A DNA stretch of 64,000 nucleotides, taken from NCBI GenBank assembly GCA_029582155.1, contig CM055901.1, positions 7,730,874 through 7,794,873 on the forward strand, in the 5' to 3' direction. The stretch's first letter is position 1, and every line of letters begins with the position of its first letter. Shown piece by piece: positions 11,591 through 58,678 of this stretch. The notes under the pieces are model-generated. The model made no database searches. It saw nothing but the letters and a program-made list of their open reading frames with translations, and had not been told where the DNA came from. Source of the DNA: Panopea generosa (taxonomy: Eukaryota; Mollusca; Bivalvia; Adapedonta; Hiatellidae). Made by a program: the position numbers and the translations under genes.

Positions 11591-11763
11591 ATGGCAAGGG
11601 ACCAGGTGTTACAGTTCGAGCCGTCCTATCTGATGTATGGCGGCGGTGCAAGCTTTGTTATGACAATTGTTATCTTCAAGCTGATTGGTCCAGCACTCTC
11701 AACACGTGTGACGTCAAAGTATAAATCTCTGCCGAAGTCAACTCAAGCAGATTGGGACGGACG
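11591..11763 (+). CDS. TLCD4: TLCD4-like copy 1, exon 1 (coding part)
   Basis: An acceptor TTTACAG ends at 11581, nine bases before the ATG. The exon encodes residues 1-57, including the first membrane segment (YLMYGGGASFVMTIVIF). The donor is CG|GTGTGT at 11764; ending there leaves two bases of an Arg codon, exactly as in copy 2. Confidence 0.9.
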
Positions 11764-11829
11764 GTGTGTAAGCATGATTATACCATTATTATAATTGTTT
11801 ATTTACATCTGTTTACATTCATATTGTAC

Positions 11830-11875
<46 letters not shown>

Positions 11876-14351
11876 AATGATAATGATGATGGTGGTGATG
11901 ATGATGATGATGATGGTTGTGGTGGTGGGGTGGTGGTGGTGATGGTGATGATGCTGACGCTGCTGCTGCTGCTGCTGCTGCTGATGGTGATGATGATGAT
12001 GATGATGATGCAGTTCATATCAGCTCTGAGCTTTCTTCGCAATCGAGCGTTAATAAGCATAAACTGTTATAATAATAAAGAAAGACAATATGTATTTATA
12101 CCTGTATGATATGTCAATTTGATCAATGTACAATAACATTTATCTTGTTATACCAGCCTCCCTGAAGAAGACGCGGTTATATCAGGTCCCCTGAAGTATA
12201 TACTGTTATAACAACCCCCACCCCCACTGAAGCATATGCAGTTATACCAGCCCCTAAAGTATATGCTGTTATACCATGCTCCCTGAAGTATAAGCTGTTA
12301 TACCAACCGTCTGAAGCATTTGCGATTATACCAGCTCACCTCTGAAGTATACACTGTTATACCTGACCCCTGAAGTATATTCTGTTATACCAGCCCCCTG
12401 AAGCATATGCGGTTATACCAGCCCCCTGAATCATTTGCGATTATACCAGCTCACCCCTGAAGTAAACACTATTATACCTGACCCCTGAAGTATATGCAGT
12501 TATACCAGCCCCCTGAAGCATTTGCGGTTATAACAGCCCCCTGAAGCATTTGCGGTTATATCAGCCCCATGAAGCATTTGCGGTTATACCAGCCCCTCCC
12601 GAAGTATATGCGGTTATTCCAATCCCCTGAATCATTTGCGATTATACCAGCTCACCCCTGAAGTAAACACTGTTATACCTGACCCCGGAAGTATATGCCG
12701 TTATACCAGCCCCCTGAAGCATTTGCGGTTATACCAGCCCCCTGAAGCATATGCGGTTATATCAGCCCCCTGGAGCATTTGCGGTTATACCAGGCCTACC
12801 CCATCCCCACCCTTTGAAGTACATACGGTTATACCAGTCCCCCTGAAGTAAACTGTTGCAGTTTAGTTTAATTATGACGGAAGTCAAACTGTTTTCCAAT
12901 TTTTCTGTAGATAATCTTAAAACATTTCTTTCATGTTTTAAGCAATGTTTGTAATAAACAAAACAAATCTGTATGGAATATTACACGTATGATTTCAGCT
13001 TATTTTTAAATAACATTCACGAATTAAATTTCTATATATATTTCACCTAAAATTCTACATATCTGCCAAATTCAAACATTGGCCAATGTTTTCACTTCTT
13101 TATTAGAAATATTGAAGCAGTGACTTAATAACAGCTGAATAATTCAGAGTCACTGATTCAAGGTACGATTTCGTTACGATTTAATTTTACGATTTAAGTA
13201 AATTTGCCTTTATGAAATACTATTATAGCGATTGAGCTCATAACATTACCAACATGTTGATATTTTTCAGAGTGACGTCTAATTTCAATGCCGCGGTGTC
13301 AATTGCTTTCTCAAGCTACGCACTTCTTTTTGAAGAAGATATTTACGTTGATGTCGTCTGGCACGACAGTCCGTACGCAAGGTTGTCGTGTGCAATACTC
13401 GTTGGCTACGCTATCGGAGGTGAGATCTACCGTCGTGGTTAATGTTTAGGCTTATTTAGTTTACTTCGAATGTGAAAAAAATATTACAACTTAGACAAAT
13501 CACGCTCAAAGTCTGGGTAGAACCAGTACTAAGCATGTTCGGATAGACGGTGCCTTGCTGAGGGACAATACACATAGCCGTGGCGGAGGATCGAACCAAC
13601 AACACTCCGATCCTGGGTCCGATGCTATACCACTGGACCACACATTCCACACCGAAGTAAATATTGTCAGTGACTTAATTGAAGCCACAGGCTAACATCA
13701 ATTCAATATTTGCGGCTGACATTTTGGGTGGCATCTTAAGTATTTCTTTGATATTTTTTTGTCTGAATTTAATAATGTTGCTACCAAAATATAGCTGATA
13801 AAAATGTTGACCATGAAAAGCATCGTGTAAATGTGTAAAATTTTATTGTATTATACAGATTATGTGTATAAATGAAAATAATATCATTTACATGTATTAT
13901 ACATAATGTTATCAAAAATATGTTTCTGATCCTCAATTTAATTAAAATGCATATATTTAAGCTAATGAGACAAGAATGCTTTATATTTTTTATGGAAAAA
14001 ACAAACAAACAAACAAACAAACAAACAAACAAACAAACAAACAAACATGCATGCATACATACATACATACATACATACATACATACATACATACATACAT
14101 ACATACATACATACATACATACATACATACATACATACATACATACATGCATACATGCATACATGCATACACACATACATAGATACAAACAAACAAACAA
14201 ACAAACAAACAAACAAACAAACAAACAAACAAACAAACAAACAAACAAACAAACAAACAAACAAACAAACAAACAAACAACAAACAAACAAACAAACAAA
14301 CAAACAACAACTATAACAAAACAACGATACCAACTACAAACAATAATAATG

Positions 14352-14390
<39 letters not shown>

Positions 14391-17300
14391 GTAATAATAA
14401 CAATAACACAGCAACAGCAGCAAAAACAACAACAACAAAACATCATCATCCTCAACAACAATAGCAACAACATGAACAATCATACCCATATTGTGCTGTA
14501 TGTTTCCAGATTTAGTCACTATGTTGCTTTGGTGCCAGATCAGCAATGCAGATTTATTTGGCTACGTGGCCCATCATGCAGCCACGGTGTATGCTTATTA
14601 TTTTGTTTCTGTAAGTGTAATACAATCATTTATTTCGTCATGTTATCATAAAGTTTCTACTGAAAAACATTTCACCGTTTTAGAGATGTCGTTTGTATTA
14701 ATCTAAAACATGCAATGATTTTATTGACCTTTCCGGTATAAGATGTCATCAAAGTTCTAAGTCTGGAGATTGGACTCCGGTTCAAAATCTTTAATTTTTG
14801 CTAACCCTATTAACGTGCAAGAAAATGTGAAAAATGTGATTGAGCAAACTCTGTTAACGTGCAAAAAAGGTGTGAATGTGATTTTGCAAACCCTGTAAAC
14901 ATGCGAGAATAGGTGAGAAATGTGATTTAGCAAACTCTGTTAACATGCGAGAATAGGTGAAAATGTGATTTAGCAAACTCTGTAAACATACAAGAATATG
15001 TGAGAAATGTGAATATGTGAGAAATGTGATTTTGCAAACTCTGTTAACAAGTAAGAATAGGTGGGAAATGTGAGTTAGCAAACTCTGTTAACATGCATGA
15101 GTATGTGGAAAATGTGATTTAGCAAACTGTTAACATTCAATAATAGGTGAAAATGTGATTTAGCAAACTCTGTTAAGGTCTCACTGAAGAATTACCTCCC
15201 TTGCATGACAAGATTATTACGCCAAAGAAATTAAAACTGTGTAAAGCGGTTGGGCAATTAAAAATGCATAAAATGTCATATTTCTTTGTGCATATGGGAA
15301 CTTTGGAACATTTTCATGATTTCTGCAAAGTTTGGGTGACATTGGGAACTGTTTGATGATGCTATAACAGTTTAAAGATGCGTAGTGATACACTGCAACA
15401 AATGGGCAGAATTGTCAAAAATGAAGTGGTGTCATCAAACCATCGAAATTGTGAAAAAAAAACTGGTCAACCCCATGATTTTTCTGCATATTTGGACCAA
15501 CAGAGGACTATCTTTGGGAATAAGGCACTTTTAGAACCATTGGTAATGTATCCAGTGTTTCAGAAGTGCATGTCTCTATATGTAGAACAGTACAAAATTA
15601 ATTGGTATGTGAGACGTTAACATGCAAGATAAGATGAAAATATGATTTTTAAACTCTGTTAAATGCAAGAATAGGTGAAAATATCATTTAGCAAACCCTG
15701 TAAACTCGCAAGAATGGGTGAGAAATGCGATTTAGCAAACCCTGTATACATGCAAGAATAGGTGAGAATGTGATTTCGCAAACTCTGTAAACATGCAAGA
15801 ATATGTCAAAAATGTGATTATGTAAACCCTATAGACGTCTTCCTGTAAACATGCAAGAATAGGTGAGAAATGTGATTTTGCAAACCCTATAGACGTCTCC
15901 CTGTAAAAATGCAAGAATAGGTGAGAAATGGTATTTTGCAAACGCTGTAAACATGCATGAATAGGTGAGAAATGTGATTTTGCAAACCCAATAGACGTCT
16001 TCCTGTAAACATGCATGAATATGTGAGAAATGTGATTTTGCAAACCCTGTAAAGATGCAAGATAAGGTGAAAAATGTAATTTAACAAACCCTGTAAACAT
16101 GCAAGAATACGTGAGAAATGTGATTTGGCAAACTCTATTAACATGCAAGATAAGGTGAAAATATGAAAATATGATTTTTAGGTGAGAAATGGTATTTTGC
16201 AAACGCTGTAAACATGCAAGAATAGGTGAGAAATGTGATTTTGCAAACCCTATAGACGTCTTCCTGTAAACATGCATGAATAGGTGAGAAATGTGATTTT
16301 GCAAACCCTGTAAACATGTAAGATTAGGTGAAAATTATTATGATTTTTAAACTCTGTTAACATGCAAAAACAGGTGAGAAATGTGATTTAGCAAACTCTG
16401 TTAACATGCAAGAAAAGGTGAGAAATGTAATTTAACAAACCCTGTTAACATGCAACAATAGGTGAAAAATGTGATTTAGCAAACTCTGTACACTTGCAAG
16501 AGTAGGTGTGAACTGCAATTGAGCAAACCCTGTACTCGCAAGGATAGGTGAGAAATGTGATTTTGCATACCCTGTAGACGTCTCCCTGTAAACATGCAAG
16601 AATCTGTGAGAAATGTGATTTCGCAAACCATGTAGACGTCTCCATGTAAACATGCAAGAATAGGTGAGAAATGTGATTTTGCAAACCCAATAAACACGAA
16701 AGAACAGGTGAGAAATGTGATTTTGCAAACCAAGTAGACGTCTCTCTGTATGTCTCCTTGATAAATGTGATTTTTTAAATATATTATGTTAAATAATCAT
16801 TGAAATTGCTTGTTTCTACAAGTTAATATCTTTACTTGCTTGTTAAATTTATGCCATGTGGATTTCATTTTTGATTTAAATGTATTTTGAGTGTGAGCTC
16901 GAAAATTGTTAAATTTATATCCTGTTGACGAAATTTAATTTTAATGAATACACACACCTTTGCGTTTGCATAAAATGTGGCTACCGTCCATCGGCTAGAC
17001 GAATTGCTGTCTGCTGTCATGGTTTGAGAGCGAGTAATATTCATGCAAGAAATTGAAATTGTAATTGATACCTGGCTAAATATTCAATTACGGACATTGA
17101 AGTTGGCATCGTGGCTTCAACACTTGTGACCATATCGTATTTAAACGATGAAGTAAATGGTATTTTACTGTTCTATACCAACACGTATTATTCATGCTCG
17201 CTATATGTATTCAGTTCCAAAATACGTGTTCCTTTAACTGTTGTATTTTGGTTACATTGAAGGTTTGTGGAATATAATGCTATTTACAACTGTTGTATTT

Positions 17301-20225
17301 CGGCTTTATTGAAGGTTTACGGAATATTTTGCTATTTACAAATGTTGTATTTTGGCTATATTGAAAGTTTGTGGAATATTATGCTATTTACAACTGCTGT
17401 ATTTTGGTTATATTGCAGGTTTATCGAATATTGTGCTATTTACAATAGTTGTATTTTGGCTACATTGAAGGTTTATGGAATATTATGCTACTCAAAACTG
17501 TTGTATTTTGGCTATATTGAAGGTTTATGGAATATTATGCTATTAACAATAGTTGTATTTCGGCTATATTGAAGGTTTATGGAATATTATGCTATTTACA
17601 TCTGTTGTATTTTGGTTATATTTCAGGTTAATGGAATATTATGCTATTAACAGCTGTTGTATTTTGGCTTTATTCAAGGTTTGTGGAAGATTATGCTATT
17701 TACAACAGTTGTATTTTGGTTATATTGCAGGTTTATGTAATATTATGCTATTTACAAATGTTGTATTTCGGTTGTATTGAAAGTTTATGGAATATTATGC
17801 TGTTTACAACTCTTATATTTTGGCTATATTGAAGATTCATGGAGTATTAAGATATTTACAACAGTTGTATTTTGGTTTAATTGGAGGTTGATGGACTTTT
17901 ATGCTATTTTTTTGGCCACATTGAAGGTTTTACGGAATATTATGTTATTTACAACAGTTGTATTTCGGTTATATTGAAGGTTCATGAACTATTATGATAT
18001 TTACAACAGTTGTATTTTGGTTTTATTGCAGGTTTATGGAATATTATGCTATTTTTTGGCCATATTGAAGGTTTACGGAATATTATGTTATTTACAACAG
18101 TTGTATTTCGGTTATATTGAAGGTTCGTGGACTATTATGCTATTTACAACAGTTGTTTTTGCCTGTATTGCAGGTTCATGGAATATTATGCTATTTAGAT
18201 CTGTTGTATTTTGGTTATATTGAAGGTTTATGGAATACTATGCTATTAGCAACTGCTGTATGTTGATTATGTTGCAGCTTTATGGAAGATTATGCTATTC
18301 ACAACTGTTGTATTTTGGCTATATTGAAGGAAGTTTACGGAAGATTATGCTATTCACAACTGTTGTGTTTTGGCTATATTGAAGGAAGTTTACGGAATAT
18401 TATGCTATTAGCAACAGTCGTATTTCGGCTTTATTGAAGGTTTATGGAATATTATGCTATTCACAATTGTTGTATTTCGGCAATATTGAAGGTTTATGGA
18501 ATATTATGCTATTCAAAACTGTTGTGTTCTGGCTATATTGAAGGTTTATGGAAGATTATGCTATTTACAACAGTTGTATTTTGGCTACATTGAAGGTTTA
18601 TGGAATATTATGCTATTCAAAACTGTTGTATTTTGGCTATAATGAAGGTTTATGGAATATTATGCTATTTACAACAGTTGTATTTCGGCTATATTGAAGG
18701 TTCATGGATTATTATTCAATTTACAACAGTTGTATTTTGGTTATAGTGCAGGTTAATGGAATATTATGCTATTTACAACTGTTGTAGTTAGGCTTTATTC
18801 AAGGTTTTAGGAATATTATGCTATTTACAATTGCAGGTTAATGGAATATTATGCTATTTACAACTGTTGTAGTTAGGCTTTATTCAAGGTTTATGGAATA
18901 TAATGCTATTTACAATTGCAGGTTTATGAAATATTATGCTATTTACAAATGTTGTATTTCGGTTGTATTGAAAGTTTATGGAATATTATGCTATTTACAA
19001 CTCAAATATTTTGGCTATATTGAAGGTTCATGGACTTTTATGCTATTTACAACAATTGTATTTTGGTTTTATTACAGGTTGATGGAATATTATGCTATTT
19101 TTTTACCATATTGACGGTTTATGGAATATTATGCTATTTACAACAGTTGTATTTCGGCTATATTGAAGGTTCATGGACTATTGTGATATTTACAACAGAT
19201 GTATGTTGGTTTTATTACAGGTTGATGGAATATTATGTTATTTAGATCTGTTATATTTTGGCTATATTGCATGTTTATGGACTATTATGCTATTAACAAC
19301 AGTTGTATTTTGGCTATATTGCAGGTTCATGGAATATTATGCTATTTATAAATGTTGTATTTTTGGTGATATTGCAGGTTTATGGAATATTATGCTATTT
19401 CGCCATGGTAAGATTGATTGCCGAGATGTCAACTCCGCCGGTCAATCAGCGGTGAGTTTTTTGTGACACTCATTTTAACAAATCGTAGTGTGTGATGGCC
19501 GCGAGATGTTATCAACCTTGAATAAAATTGATATTTATTGAAATATTTGATTTGGTATGTAAGGTGCGACAATAGTCAATACTTGCATGGATATACGGTA
19601 TTTTGTGATATATTTTTTCTTTAAAAGAACACACATCCGTTTTTTGCATTTTTAAAAGGACGCACCACAAGTTTAACTTAAAATATTTTCTAAAATTATA
19701 TACTTACATGTAAAATAAACTCCTCCAGAACTTTCGTTTCTAAATTGTAGAGGTATTACTCTGGTAATCGCATTTTATTTCAAACAAGTGTGGTCATTTA
19801 TGGCAACTATCACGCAGAGAAACAAAAACTGCGGCTGACTTGCAAACAAAATCCAAACTTATATCATCCTGTACAATCGATACATTTCGTCATTTTTTCT
19901 TAATTTCAGGTGGTTTTTTGATGTGCTGAACAAACCCAGAAGTAACCTTCCGGTCACCATAAATGGCTTCTTGATGGTTTTGACATTCTTCATATTCCGG
20001 ATATGTACCATGCCGATACACTGGTACAAAATATGGACGGTTACCGGCTCAGATGAAGTGATAAAGCTGGGATACATTCAAATTATAATGTACGCACCTT
20101 GTTTGGTGTTGGACTCATTAAATACATATTGGTTTTATAAAATGTGCAAAGGTTTTATCAAAGCCGTTAAAGCACTTAACAGTTCTAAAATCAAGGCAAG
20201 AGAAGTAACGTCTAAATCAGATTAG
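11591..20225 (+). CDS. TLCD4: TLC domain-containing protein 4-like, copy 1 (five coding exons)
   Basis: Join 11591-11763, 13271-13419, 14510-14610, 19378-19451, 19910-20225; 813 nt, 270 residues. The spliced protein has a multi-pass membrane character. Residues about 13-35 are hydrophobic, a His-His pair lies at 129-130 in the TLC domain, and RLIAEMSTPPVNQRWFF at 153-169 matches the family signature seen in vertebrate TLCD4 (RLLAELSSPFVNQRWFF). The C-terminal third ends in a lysine-rich tail. Length is close to the ~263 residues of human TLCD4. TLC proteins are ER or plasma-membrane proteins linked to lipid handling; the substrate of TLCD4 is not settled and none is inferred here. All introns are GT-AG, phases 2, 1, 0, 2, as in copy 2. 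The start is the first ATG after an acceptor at 11581, so a 5' UTR exon probably lies upstream. Introns 1 to 3 carry large arrays, and intron 3 (4.77 kb) is the extreme case. Confidence 0.92.
11832..12010. repeat. (GAT)n / (GGT)n trinucleotide repeat in intron 1
   Basis: GAT repeats with GGT and CTG stretches. The poly-Asp and poly-Ser frames on the two strands are microsatellite translations and not genes. Confidence 0.95.
12150..12855. repeat. ~28-31-bp minisatellite in intron 1
   Basis: About 24 copies of a unit reading CCAGCCCCCTGAAGCATTTG then CGGTTATA, with many substitutions and small length changes. Confidence 0.9.
13271..13419 (+). CDS. TLCD4: TLCD4-like copy 1, exon 2
   Basis: Acceptor TATTTTTCAG ends at 13270; donor GAG|GTGAGA at 13420. 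It is 149 nt, the same as copy 2. It completes Arg58 and encodes the stretch with EEDIYVDVVWHDS and the next hydrophobic segment. Confidence 0.93.
13500..13650 (-). mobile_element. tRNA-derived SINE in intron 2
   Basis: On the minus strand: GTGGTCCAGTGGTATAGCAT (A box), GATCGGAGTGTTG, then GGTTCGATCC (B box). TAGTACTGGTTCTACCCAG near its end also occurs in the copy at 24570-24755. Confidence 0.6.
13998..14460. repeat. Compound (CAAA)n-(CATA)n-(CAAA)n-(CAA)n microsatellite in intron 2
   Basis: CAAA at about 13998-14045, CATA/CATG to about 14185, CAAA to about 14307, then CAA-rich sequence to about 14460. It ends about 50 bp before the exon 3 acceptor. Frames of up to 259 codons on both strands are repeat translations. 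Confidence 0.97.
14510..14610 (+). CDS. TLCD4: TLCD4-like copy 1, exon 3
   Basis: Acceptor TTTCCAG ends at 14509; donor TCT|GTAAGT at 14611. It is 101 nt and ends in phase 0. It encodes residues 108-141, with the His-His pair in GYVAHHAATVYAYYF, near-identical to copy 2. Confidence 0.95.
14798..15176. repeat. ~43-bp tandem array in intron 3, left part
   Basis: About eight copies of GTGATTTAGCAAACTCTGTT then AACATGCAAGAATAGGTGAG. The array is split here by a TTAA-flanked insertion and resumes at 15617. Confidence 0.9.
15177..15616. mobile_element. 440-bp TTAA-flanked insertion (piggyBac-like non-autonomous candidate)
   Basis: A unique segment interrupts the 43-bp array. It is bounded on both sides by TTAA (15173-15176 and 15617-15620), the target duplication typical of piggyBac elements. 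The ends are short inverted repeats: GGTCTCAC on the left and GTGAGACG on the right. An 80-codon frame (15378-15620) shows no recognised domain and runs into the right flank, so it is probably not a gene. The array makes the insertion boundaries unusually clear. Confidence 0.65.
15617..16745. repeat. ~43-bp tandem array in intron 3, right part
   Basis: The same unit as at 14798-15176, about 24 copies. Several units carry an extra TAGACGTCTCCCTG or similar between CAAACCC and TAAACATG, giving higher-order units. Minus-strand frames of up to 190 codons are array translations. Confidence 0.9.
17234..19400 (+). repeat. ~52-bp array made of the exon 4 splice-acceptor region, about 40 copies
   Basis: The unit reads AACTGTTGTATTTTGGCTAT, then ATTGAAG or ATTGCAG, then GTTTATGGAATATTATGCTA, then TTTAC. 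The second half (GTTTATGG to GCTATTT, 23 nt) is identical to the first 23 nt of exon 4 (19378-19400). The first half matches the intron end just before it. The true acceptor is therefore the last unit of the array. Many units keep an AG at the splice position, and about ten have a stronger CAG (near 17420, 17732, 18034, 18174, 18838, 18923, 19325). Intron 3 of copy 2 has no such array. It arose by repeated tandem duplication across an intron-exon boundary. Confidence 0.9.
19378..19451 (+). CDS. TLCD4: TLCD4-like copy 1, exon 4
   Basis: Acceptor ATTGCAG ends at 19377, donor CG|GTGAGT at 19452. It is 74 nt, the same as copy 2. It encodes residues 142-165 plus two bases of Arg166, including the conserved RLIAEMSTPPVNQ. 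The first 23 nt form the last unit of the upstream array. Confidence 0.93.
19910..20225 (+). CDS. TLCD4: TLCD4-like copy 1, exon 5 (terminal)
   Basis: Acceptor TAATTTCAG ends at 19909. It completes Arg166 and encodes WFFDVLNKPRSN, hydrophobic segments with GFLMVLTFFIFRI and LVLDSLNTYWFY, and a charged tail ending TSKSD before TAG. Confidence 0.95.
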
Positions 20226-47200: not shown

Positions 47201-49067
47201 TGCAGCATCAAACAACTTGTCTCAATTCGTATACCCATGTACAGTCACAACATAGAAAATACTGACATGAAGGGTTTTAATAAAATAAAACGTGAACTGA
47301 TATAGTGTAAACAAAACGTACCGAATTTGGAAGCCTTGCATTAACATTCGGAATGTTAAGGAATTTCCTATGTTTTAAAAACGACACTATTGTATGCATA
47401 TCCCTTTTAACATTATTTAGTTATTATGTTATAGTTAGTGTTCATTAAGTAAAATTTTAACAATTAAGAAACCGAAAGGGAGCGACCGCAGGGACCTTAA
47501 TTGTTAATTTTTTACTAAATGAACGCTAACTGGCTTACTGTAGTGTTAAACGTCATTTGACTTACAGTTTGACGTCATTTGACTGACTGCGGGTGAAGCT
47601 ACGATGAAAGCCACAATTTTGAAAATTGAAGCTATTCCATTGGTTGTCAAATGAGGTTAAACACTAACCACATTTTAAATTCAAATATGCCCTTTAGTTT
47701 TTGAATTAACGTGCAGATATTTTATAATAGGATAAGAATAAACAATAGATTTTATATTAATATTTCAATATGATTACTTTAAAATCTACCATTACTTATA
47801 ATTGATGCATGTACTTAATACTGTTACCTAACAATACCGAACAATATTTTATTTGAAGGCATATGGCGTGTTATGTTATTTTGGGATGTTGCGATTGATT
47901 GCCGAAATGTCTACACCATTCGTCAATCAAAGGTAAGTTAATGGTGACATGTTGTCAACTCAAGTTCGTGGCGCACTTGATGTTTTAGTGCTACAGTACG
48001 AGGGATGCTCCGGTTTCACGAAATACTTGAATCCGTTATTTAACTTAAACTCAAATAGTGTGCTCAATTTTAGTATGAAATTGAGCACACATTGAGTTTA
48101 CGTAAAATAACAGACTGAAATATTTTTGTGAAATTGGGGCCTGGTGTATGCCTTAAGATTCATCTATATTTATATATCTGATTAATTTTAATGTATATTA
48201 ATTGAGTATTTAATATTGATATTTAGCAACAGATTGTCCAATGATCAATGTATAAACAATAAGTTAAATATTTTAGTTGCTTTACTTTTTTCTTTGTTTG
48301 TTTTTTATTAGATATATTCATAAAATTTATGAAAAACAACTCATTACATTAAAATAATCTTTTATCTAAAATAATTATTGATCAATTAATTTCTATGAAC
48401 ATCACAGAATGTCATTACAAATGTATCATAAAATTTCAGTACCTCATCACAGTATCAATCCTTACTAATTGAGAATCTTATGTTACTTGAAAACTTATTA
48501 TCAATAGTTAATAAGCTAAAAATGAAATAAAAGTAAATGATCATTTTTATTTAAATTACGTTTATCTAGGTATTATATTGGTTAATGAACAATTTATAAG
48601 ACATATTAGATTAAATTTATTTTGGTATTATATTGGTAAACTATCATTTTTATATACATTGTGCACACTGAAATTCTTAAATATTAGTTTTAATAAGAAC
48701 ATGTGTCATTATTGTCACTTGACTAATATATGCTTCTTTTTTTTAACACGTCAGGTGGATTTTCGACAAACTAGCCACACCGCGATCAAGGATATATGTT
48801 ATTCTTAACGGAGTTCTCATGGTGTTGACGTTCTTTTTATTTCGTATTTGTACTATGCCAATATACTGGTACCAGATATGGCAGGTGACCGGTACAGAAG
48901 CAGTTACAAAGCTGGGCCACATTCAACTTATAATGTATGGACCATGTTTTGTCTTGGATGCTTTAAATATATTTTGGTTTTACAAAATGTGTAAAGGATT
49001 TGTGAAAGCTGTGAACGCGCTTCGTAAATCTAAAGACGATACTGCAATTAAGGCCAAATCTGTTTGA
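44036..49067 (+). CDS. TLCD4: TLC domain-containing protein 4-like, copy 2 (five coding exons)
   Basis: Join 44036-44217, 46298-46446, 46831-46931, 47859-47932, 48755-49067; 819 nt, 272 residues. An in-frame ATG at 44045 gives 269 residues and makes exon 1 the same length (173 nt) as in copy 1. That ATG also has the same G at -3 and +4, so it may be the true start. The protein has the same layout as copy 1: an N-terminal membrane segment, GYMFHHAATVYAYYF in exon 3, RLIAEMSTPFVNQRW across exons 4-5, and a hydrophobic C-terminal third with a lysine-rich tail. It is a multi-pass TLC-family membrane protein, with molecular role unknown as for copy 1. All introns are GT-AG, phases 2, 1, 0, 2. Its introns are free of long arrays, but intron 3 carries small inverted-repeat elements. 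No clear polyadenylation signal was found before the downstream satellite. Confidence 0.93.
45276..45450. mobile_element. Foldback element in intron 1 of copy 2
   Basis: Two adjacent hairpins. Arms 45276-45299 and 45311-45334 (core GGCATATT with TTAAATTAA) pair with few mismatches. Arms 45359-45388 and 45421-45450 (core GGTGAAAAGTCGAAACAA) pair with two mismatches, and a shorter inner arm lies at 45403-45419. Probably a palindromic MITE. Confidence 0.65.
46298..46446 (+). CDS. TLCD4: TLCD4-like copy 2, exon 2
   Basis: Acceptor TTTTCCAG ends at 46297; donor GGAG|GTAAAT at 46447. It is 149 nt. It encodes LLSNVNAIVSVTF and EEGMHEDVVWHDS, parallel to copy 1. Confidence 0.94.
46831..46931 (+). 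CDS. TLCD4: TLCD4-like copy 2, exon 3
   Basis: Acceptor GTGTTTGCAG ends at 46830; donor TCT|GTAAGT at 46932. It is 101 nt and carries the His-His pair of the TLC domain. Confidence 0.95.
46950..47114. mobile_element. 165-bp MITE with 15-bp inverted ends and 9-bp target duplication
   Basis: The left end TACAGTCAAACCTGT (46950-46964) is the exact reverse complement of the right end (47100-47114). Direct copies of TATGTGTTA flank it at 46941-46949 and 47115-47123. A 9-bp duplication fits Mutator-like transposition, and an 8-bp reading would fit hAT. It inserted 9 bp downstream of the 46932-46940 donor sequence GTAAGTTTT, and the donor is intact. Confidence 0.88.
47434..47530. mobile_element. 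Inverted repeat element in intron 3 of copy 2
   Basis: The 35-nt arms 47434-47468 (GTTAGTGTTCATTAAGTAAA onward) and 47496-47530 pair with few mismatches around a GC-rich 27-nt centre. AACACTAAC at 47660-47668 also mirrors the left end, so the element could extend to there. Confidence 0.6.
47859..47932 (+). CDS. TLCD4: TLCD4-like copy 2, exon 4
   Basis: Acceptor ATTTGAAG ends at 47858, a non-CAG acceptor like most units of the copy 1 array; donor AAAG|GTAAGT at 47933. It is 74 nt. Encodes AYGVLCYFGMLRLIAEMSTP and FVNQ. Confidence 0.93.
48008..48141. mobile_element. ~134-bp foldback MITE in intron 4 of copy 2
   Basis: Arms meet near 48076. Inner arms AGTGTGCTCAATTT and AAATTGAGCACACA pair closely. 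Outer parts (GCTCCGGTTTCACGAAATA, and TTTTTGTGAAATTGGGGCC on the right) pair less well. The element is a hairpin over almost its whole length. Confidence 0.7.
48755..49067 (+). CDS. TLCD4: TLCD4-like copy 2, exon 5 (terminal)
   Basis: Acceptor AACACGTCAG ends at 48754. Encodes WIFDKLATPRSR, GVLMVLTFFLFRICTMP and LDALNIFWFYKMCKGFVKAV, with a charged tail ending KAKSV before TGA. Confidence 0.95.
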
Positions 49068-57865: not shown

Positions 57866-58296
57866 TCATTTTCCAAAGATCCTGTTTACTAGAGTATTCC
57901 TTCTCTTTCTATATTTAAGTCCAGCAGTTGTCATTTGTTCAAATACATAATTAACTGAGTCTTTTTCAAACGCCGTACATTCCAGATACGTATCTGCACC
58001 AATGTCTTTAGCCAGCCTTTGGCCTTCCTCGGTACTGATGCTCCGTTTGTGTTTAGATCGTAGATCGGTTTGTGTAGCCACTAAGATGATTGGCTTTCTC
58101 CGGCGCGTGCAGTTGTTCACCTCCGGTACCCAGAAATCTTTGATACTTTCCATAGAATTCTTGTCAACGACTGAGAAACAGAGAACGAGCACCTCGCTGT
58201 CTTTGTAAGAACACGAGCGCATGATTTCGTAGTCGTGTTGGCCGGCGTTGTCAAGGATACTCAAGTTATGTTTTTGTCCGTCAACATTTAGGCATC
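57866..58296 (-). CDS. Rho-like GTPase, exon 2 (terminal)
   Basis: The acceptor, read on the minus strand, is TATTTTCAG|GATGCC, with the exon beginning at 58296. It encodes residues 48-190 from the end of switch I to the stop. Confidence 0.92.
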
Positions 58297-58678
58297 CTGA
58301 AAATATAAAAAAATACAAATCATAGGTCATAATGTTTAAATTGACAATTATTCTGTTACACTACATGCTAATCAAACGGTTAATCAGCTATGTAAAACAA
58401 TAGTAGTTTCCAGTTTTAAATATATGTTATGAATAAATTATATTCTGAAGCTATTAAAACTGAAATAATAGCTATTAAAAATAAACATTTCATTTCGTTT
58501 AGAACTTTTTTAAACGATATCAAAGACGATGCTTACCTTCATATGTTTCTAGCACCGTGGCAACATACGGCGTCTGTGGTCTATGTCGGTCCATGAACGC
58601 CTGTACCAGCGTACTCTTTCCGATCATGGCATCTCCGATTAACGTGCAGTGGACTGGTTTCTCAATTTTCACAACCAT
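57866..58678 (-). CDS. Rho-like small GTPase (two exons), no CAAX box
   Basis: Join, minus strand, 58678-58537 and 58296-57866; 573 nt, 190 residues. The P-loop is GDAMIGKS (residues 15-22), the switch I threonine is T41 in ATVLETY, G3 is DNAGQ (63-67), G4 is TQTD (122-125) and G5 is ECTA (153-156). FWVPEV and TQTDLR place it in the Rho/Rac/Cdc42 group. As a family, Rho GTPases switch between GDP and GTP forms and signal to actin. Three things are odd. Ala17 replaces the glycine equivalent to Ras Gly12. The stretch between DLR and ECTA is about ten residues shorter than in Cdc42, so the Rho insert helix is mostly missing. The C-terminus is basic (KYRKRRNTLVNRIFGK) with no cysteine for prenylation. 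It may hydrolyse GTP poorly and bind membranes by charge, but both are inference. The start is the only ATG in frame before the P-loop. Confidence 0.9.
58537..58678 (-). CDS. Rho-like GTPase, exon 1 (coding part)
   Basis: ATG at 58678; donor GAAG|GTAAGC with GT at 58536-58535. It is 142 nt, leaving one base of Gly48. It encodes MVVKIEKPVHCTLIGDAMIG and the start of switch I. The intron is 240 bp. Confidence 0.92.

Follow-up and report, generated by a model that had tools for sequence, protein, structure and literature searches.

Tandem copies of an intron-exon boundary, termed mirages, have been described in the lancelet genes for Adh3, the globins BflGb6 and BflGb9, troponin C and PGBD5 (PMC3087553, PMC3902484). 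In BflGb6, two haplotypes carry 6 and 3 units with 81-100% identity (PMC3087553). Many units of the globin mirages contain cryptic AG/GT signals, and RT-PCR suggests that splicing is undisturbed (PMC3087553). The Adh and troponin C mirages are likewise reported without splicing disturbance (PMC3902484).

Related arrangements are known from other genes. The human CBS polymorphism 844ins68 is a 68-bp tandem duplication of the intron 7/exon 8 boundary; splicing strongly prefers the distal site, and the mRNA is therefore normal (PMC2630376). Decoy exons in detained introns, such as that of human OGT intron 4, are characterized by many weak splice sites in a long intron (PMC12017769). Finally, tandem duplication of a segment that includes splice signals has been associated with intron gain (PMC4974935; model in PMC3087553).

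Here we describe a long mirage in what is most likely a bivalve gene. It is of the kind already described in lancelets and is an unusually long example. It lies in a window of 64,000 nucleotides (C8:7730874-7794873, the whole stretch of DNA analysed). The features of the locus are as follows (a slash marks the exon-intron junction):

11591-11763, + strand: first coding exon of gene 1, which encodes a TLC-domain protein
13271-13419, + strand: exon 2 of gene 1
14510-14610, + strand: exon 3 of gene 1, with donor TCT/GTAAGT at 14611
14796-15176, + strand: first block of a 44-bp array in intron 3 of gene 1, with donor-like motifs
15619-16731, + strand: second block of the 44-bp array in intron 3 of gene 1, with the majority of the donor-like TAG/GTGAGA motifs
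17236-19400, + strand: 52-bp boundary-spanning array (mirage) of 43 units, of which unit 43 is genuine
17236-19349, + strand: the 42 decoy units, of which 37 keep the AG; in 31 of these 37 it is preceded by a yUnAy motif at a distance of 15-45 nt
19350-19377, + strand: intron end of the genuine unit, with acceptor TTGCAG (AG at 19376-19377) and a branch-like motif 30 nt upstream
19378-19451, + strand: exon 4 of gene 1 (74 nt), whose first 23 nt are included in the repeat unit
19910-20225, + strand: exon 5 of gene 1, with the stop codon
44036-49067, + strand: gene 2, a paralog, with exon 4 at 47859-47932, acceptor TTTGAAG/GCATATGG and no array there
C8:7719131-7725985: gene 0, the third TLC-domain gene of the tandem, which lies immediately upstream of the window, with exon 4 acceptor AAG

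Three properties of a mirage were found at this locus: a tandem unit that joins an intron end to an exon start (43 x 52 bp), splice signals in many but not all units (AG in 37 of the 42 decoys), and an intact genuine boundary at the array edge, from which the native frame continues to the stop at 20225. The likeness to the lancelet cases extends to a minisatellite laid over the boundary, with a unit that, as in BflGb6, consists of an intron 3' end and an exon 5' part (PMC3087553), and to AG in many units with the genuine boundary at the edge (PMC3087553, PMC3902484). Unlike in the lancelet mirages, the array belongs to a bivalve gene, has 43 units as against 6 and 3 in BflGb6, and shares its intron with a donor-like array; in addition, each AG decoy was traced here to a stop. 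Transcripts and length polymorphism have been established for lancelet mirages, whereas the present array is known from the sequence of one assembly. It resembles CBS 844ins68 in being a tandem duplication of an intron-exon boundary, but that human polymorphism adds one copy and this array 42. Like the OGT intron, intron 3 of gene 1 is long and rich in weak sites, but it lacks the acceptor-then-donor order of the OGT decoy exon. As in intron gain by tandem duplication, the duplicated segment includes splice signals, but no new intron is visible and the old intron 3 has grown. Among open-licence papers, considered by titles and the starts of abstracts, we recognised no mollusc mirage, and mirages were found in print for lancelets only. 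The locus thus extends boundary-spanning minisatellites beyond lancelets, to a gene that is bivalve by homology. Spliceosome choice among near-identical acceptors is usually studied with few engineered sites; here, a natural series of 37 AG copies lies ahead of the genuine site, each with a known, different frame outcome.

Gene 1 (11591-20225) encodes a TLCD4-like product of 270 residues with a TLC domain (TRAM/LAG1/CLN8; PF03798, 99 bits versus a gathering cut-off of 24.6) and is one of three tandem paralogs, genes 0, 1 and 2. Six protein relatives were found with 52-63% identity, those named belonging to Dreissena polymorpha, Ruditapes philippinarum and Mactra antiquata, all bivalves, so that the species analysed is most likely a bivalve too; in an alignment of the gene 1 translation with seven relatives, there is no gap at the exon 3/4 junction. 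Genes 0 and 1 are sisters in the tree (support 95/96), the remaining forks being mostly weak, and exon 4 measures 74 nt in all three genes. We found no array at exon 4 of gene 0 or gene 2, so that the paralog previously remarked to lack it is one of two. By coordinate subtraction, intron 3 is 4767 nt long in gene 1, about 1658 nt in gene 0 and 927 nt in gene 2, and tandem arrays make up approximately 76% of the gene 1 intron. The exon 4 acceptor of both gene 0 and gene 2, as placed by frame and homology, reads ...TTGAAG/GCATATGG. Since both paralogs have AAG, this form is likely ancestral and the genuine CAG of gene 1 derived, a polarity that depends on the fork uniting genes 0 and 1 and on the two paralog acceptors so placed. 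A distant fourth TLC match (C8:45977659, 30% identity) was dropped, as there was no clear exon in the stretch translated.

An earlier note on this DNA had proposed about 40 tandem copies of the boundary in front of exon 4, each formed by about 29 nt of intron end and the first 23 nt of the exon, with the genuine acceptor in the last one. All of this was borne out. Wrap-around parsing of 17236-19400 yielded 43 units with a 52-bp consensus, whose 23-nt exonic part is identical to the start of exon 4, and the last unit (19350-19400) holds the genuine intron 3/exon 4 boundary. TRF reported a period of 52 over 17236-18830, 18915-19100 and 19108-19400, and a period of 156, equal to three units, over 17236-19400 with a score of 2249; in 100 first-order Markov resamples of 17000-19600, the top score was 73 and the median 38. 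The mean pairwise difference between units is 0.159. Deletions occur in units 13-14, 16-17, 32, 34, 37 and 38, and a 3-nt insertion lies beside the junction in units 22 and 23. A search of the 1.47-Gb assembly (39 contigs) with two units gave a single region with at least 22 matches, all inside the array and none elsewhere, these match numbers being lower bounds.

The array edges carry some trace of its origin. The first unit is preceded by ...TTCCTTT-AACTG, the junction between units reads ...GCTATTT-AC-AACTG, and exon 4 continues past the repeated part as ...GCTATTT-CGCC. The break thus coincides with a TTT that these sequences share, two bases having been added there, and would fit a tandem duplication through short homology. 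Units 30-31/32-33, 14-15/17-18 and 5-6/27-28 form repeated blocks, which suggest later duplication of whole blocks. We propose that one of the three TLCD4-like paralogs underwent tandem duplication of a segment of about 52 bp over the intron 3/exon 4 boundary, that unequal exchange or slippage then multiplied and shuffled it to 43 copies, and that the surplus copies would have been pushed into intron 3.

Judged by its motifs, each copy forms a nearly complete 3' splice-site module with a branch-like motif, a T-rich tract and an AG. In 36 of the 43 units, there is a yUnAy motif at 15-45 nt upstream, and in 29 of the 43 the distance is exactly 29 nt. AG was lost in decoys 3, 11, 35 (AAA), 38 (ACG) and 41 (CAT); the other 37 comprise 24 AAG, 12 CAG and 1 GAG. 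The earlier statement that many units keep AG and about ten have CAG therefore holds, but it overlooked AAG, the inferred acceptor of both paralogs. AAG decoys are thus not dead, and plausible sites are more numerous than the CAG units alone would suggest. Acceptors and donors were scored with approximate metazoan matrices, so that scores give a rough ranking. On this scale, the genuine exon 4 acceptor of gene 1 scores 4.4 and is equalled or exceeded by 7 of the 37 AG decoys, and the scores of eight other genuine acceptors lie between -2.1 (gene 2 exon 4) and 9.8, a range whose lower end is reached by 36 of the 37.

Whichever of the 37 AG decoys were joined to exon 3, a stop would come ahead of the native end. 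Decoy use had been expected to give mostly nonsense transcripts, and the frames of all 37 bear this out; the reason offered, a frame shift, applies in part, as the extension is divisible by three for 13 of the 37, and a stop is met even so. The TAT-TGA stop was said to lie in the next unit, but it actually comes one unit later, as the 34th codon at the second junction downstream of the used decoy, and is the exact endpoint for 7 of the 37; the median distance to the stop is 31 codons. Use of units 42, 40, 39, 37 and 36 would give an exon 4 of 127, 231, 283, 374 and 426 nt, respectively. In 36 of the 37 cases, the stop is located within exon 4 as extended by the decoy, no less than 55 nt ahead of the exon 4/5 junction, while that of unit 40 falls in exon 5. 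The 55-nt rule for nonsense-mediated decay was worked out in mammals. Two further roles of the array were rejected. It would not be a coding part of a longer exon 4, as every AG decoy leads to a stop and exon 4 is 74 nt in three genes; and it would not supply pseudo-exons, as no donor in it scores 4 or more with the approximate matrix.

We also looked for traces of selection in the array, using 35 of the 42 decoys and leaving out the 7 gapped ones. AG was retained at 0.886, compared with a mean of 0.808 for all dinucleotides (rank 22 of 51), which gives no clear selection signal. Exon columns (0.920) did not differ significantly from intron columns (0.887; permutation p 0.145), and a codon-position test on the decoys showed no clear selection signal either. 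In a post hoc comparison, C at position -3 was present in 5 of the last seven units and in 9 of the 36 others (Fisher p 0.028), an excess that may reflect selection on this part of the array. The downstream exons are constrained: between genes 1 and 0, exons 4-5 have dN 0.186, dS 0.90 and dN/dS 0.207 (126 codons), and the whole coding region has dN/dS 0.257 (267 codons). Such pairwise values are not assignable to a single branch, although one unconstrained branch should raise them much; comparisons with gene 2 were saturated. Gene 1 thus seems to have yielded full-length protein all through the growth and drift of the array, and the constraint on exons 4-5 implies that the last acceptor must be used often enough.

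The array is probably a tolerated minisatellite of the mirage type, in which exon definition favours the last acceptor. If exons are recognised as units, as established for vertebrates, only the last few decoys would compete, and farther copies would matter little. Only the last copy gives the full-length protein, and only this copy has the exon 4 donor and non-repeated exon sequence beside it, which is why exon definition would be expected to favour it. RNA made by stray use of a decoy would contain a stop and could be removed by nonsense-mediated decay. The array may then be mostly tolerated baggage, its neutrality being inferred, like the preference for the last site and the decay of misspliced RNA. 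The opposite of what exon definition predicts would follow from a kinetic race, where the decoys have the advantage of earlier transcription, and the locus would be compatible with either. As 7 of the 37 decoys match or outscore the genuine site and 36 reach the lowest genuine acceptor, sequence alone gives no reason why the last should win.

If such a race operated, the array could act as a copy-number rheostat: decoys would capture the exon 3 donor by their number, the stop-containing products would decay, and array length would set protein output. The idea of the earlier note that copy number tunes expression is possible, and several observations agree with this mechanism, including a stop for all 37 AG decoys, 36 of them placed for decay, AAG decoys that match the inferred acceptors of both paralogs, and the seven that score no lower than the genuine site. 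We nevertheless consider the rheostat unlikely, because only a few decoys (units 42, 40 and 39, with 127, 231 and 283 nt) would give an exon 4 of ordinary size, exons 4-5 are still under purifying selection despite a unit drift of about 16%, the decoy AGs are without clear conservation, and lancelet mirages are described as harmless to splicing (PMC3087553, PMC3902484). The 44-bp array adds another side to intron 3. It has no visible derivation from an exon edge. In 14796-16760, 15 donor-like sites score 4 or more with the approximate matrix, where the rest of the window would predict 0.67; the genuine donor of exon 3, TCT/GTAAGT, scores 1.3. Both donor-like and acceptor-like sites are therefore abundant in this intron, with donors preceding acceptors. 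One may speculate that this order of the two ladders permits splices within the intron without any change to the final product, or makes a slow intron.

Another reading takes intron 3 for a detained intron, in which the two arrays together would hold many spliceosomes in a half-assembled state and so delay its removal, a mechanism proposed for the decoy exons of human OGT intron 4. The excess of donor-like sites over a weak real donor speaks for it, as does OGT, where a decoy with multiple weak 5' and 3' sites is required for intron retention (PMC12017769). Yet the sites run from donors to acceptors where a decoy exon runs from acceptor to donor, and the 52-bp array contains no donor scoring 4 or more, all by approximate matrices, so that we regard detention as decidedly improbable. 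It is also quite unlikely that intron 3 is a two-part splicing rheostat, with a row of donor-like sites ahead of a row of near-complete acceptors, whose unstable copy number would set the amount of functional mRNA, and with a genuine acceptor that changed from AAG to CAG in answer to competition from its own copies. The lancelet globin mirage model, in which a unit turns into a new exon between two introns (PMC3087553), would make the array raw material for intron gain; as the array lacks donors that score 4 or more, every AG decoy runs into a stop and exon 4 is still 74 nt long, this seems the most improbable of the readings considered. A lancelet mirage was reported to be misassembled in a draft (PMC3087553), and a few real copies could in principle have been inflated to 43 here. 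Their mean difference of about 16% implies that the units are not copies of one read stretch, and the array is contiguous within a 76.7-Mb contig; such an artefact is very improbable.

The preferred reading, a tolerated mirage, also agrees with the surroundings of gene 1. After merging, 14 minisatellite loci (period at least 10, score at least 100) occupy 22% of the window. Its two genes have 16 splice junctions between them, of which a single one is touched by one of these loci. Minisatellites being this dense, an array over a splice junction need not be extraordinary in this genome.

Scans of the window with ARAGORN for tRNA and with Rfam found nothing. The segment 13560-13660, called by neither, resembles a tRNA and is perhaps a tRNA-derived repeat. 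The - strand has an open reading frame at 57866-58360 that encodes a Ras-family GTPase domain (PF00071, 93 bits).
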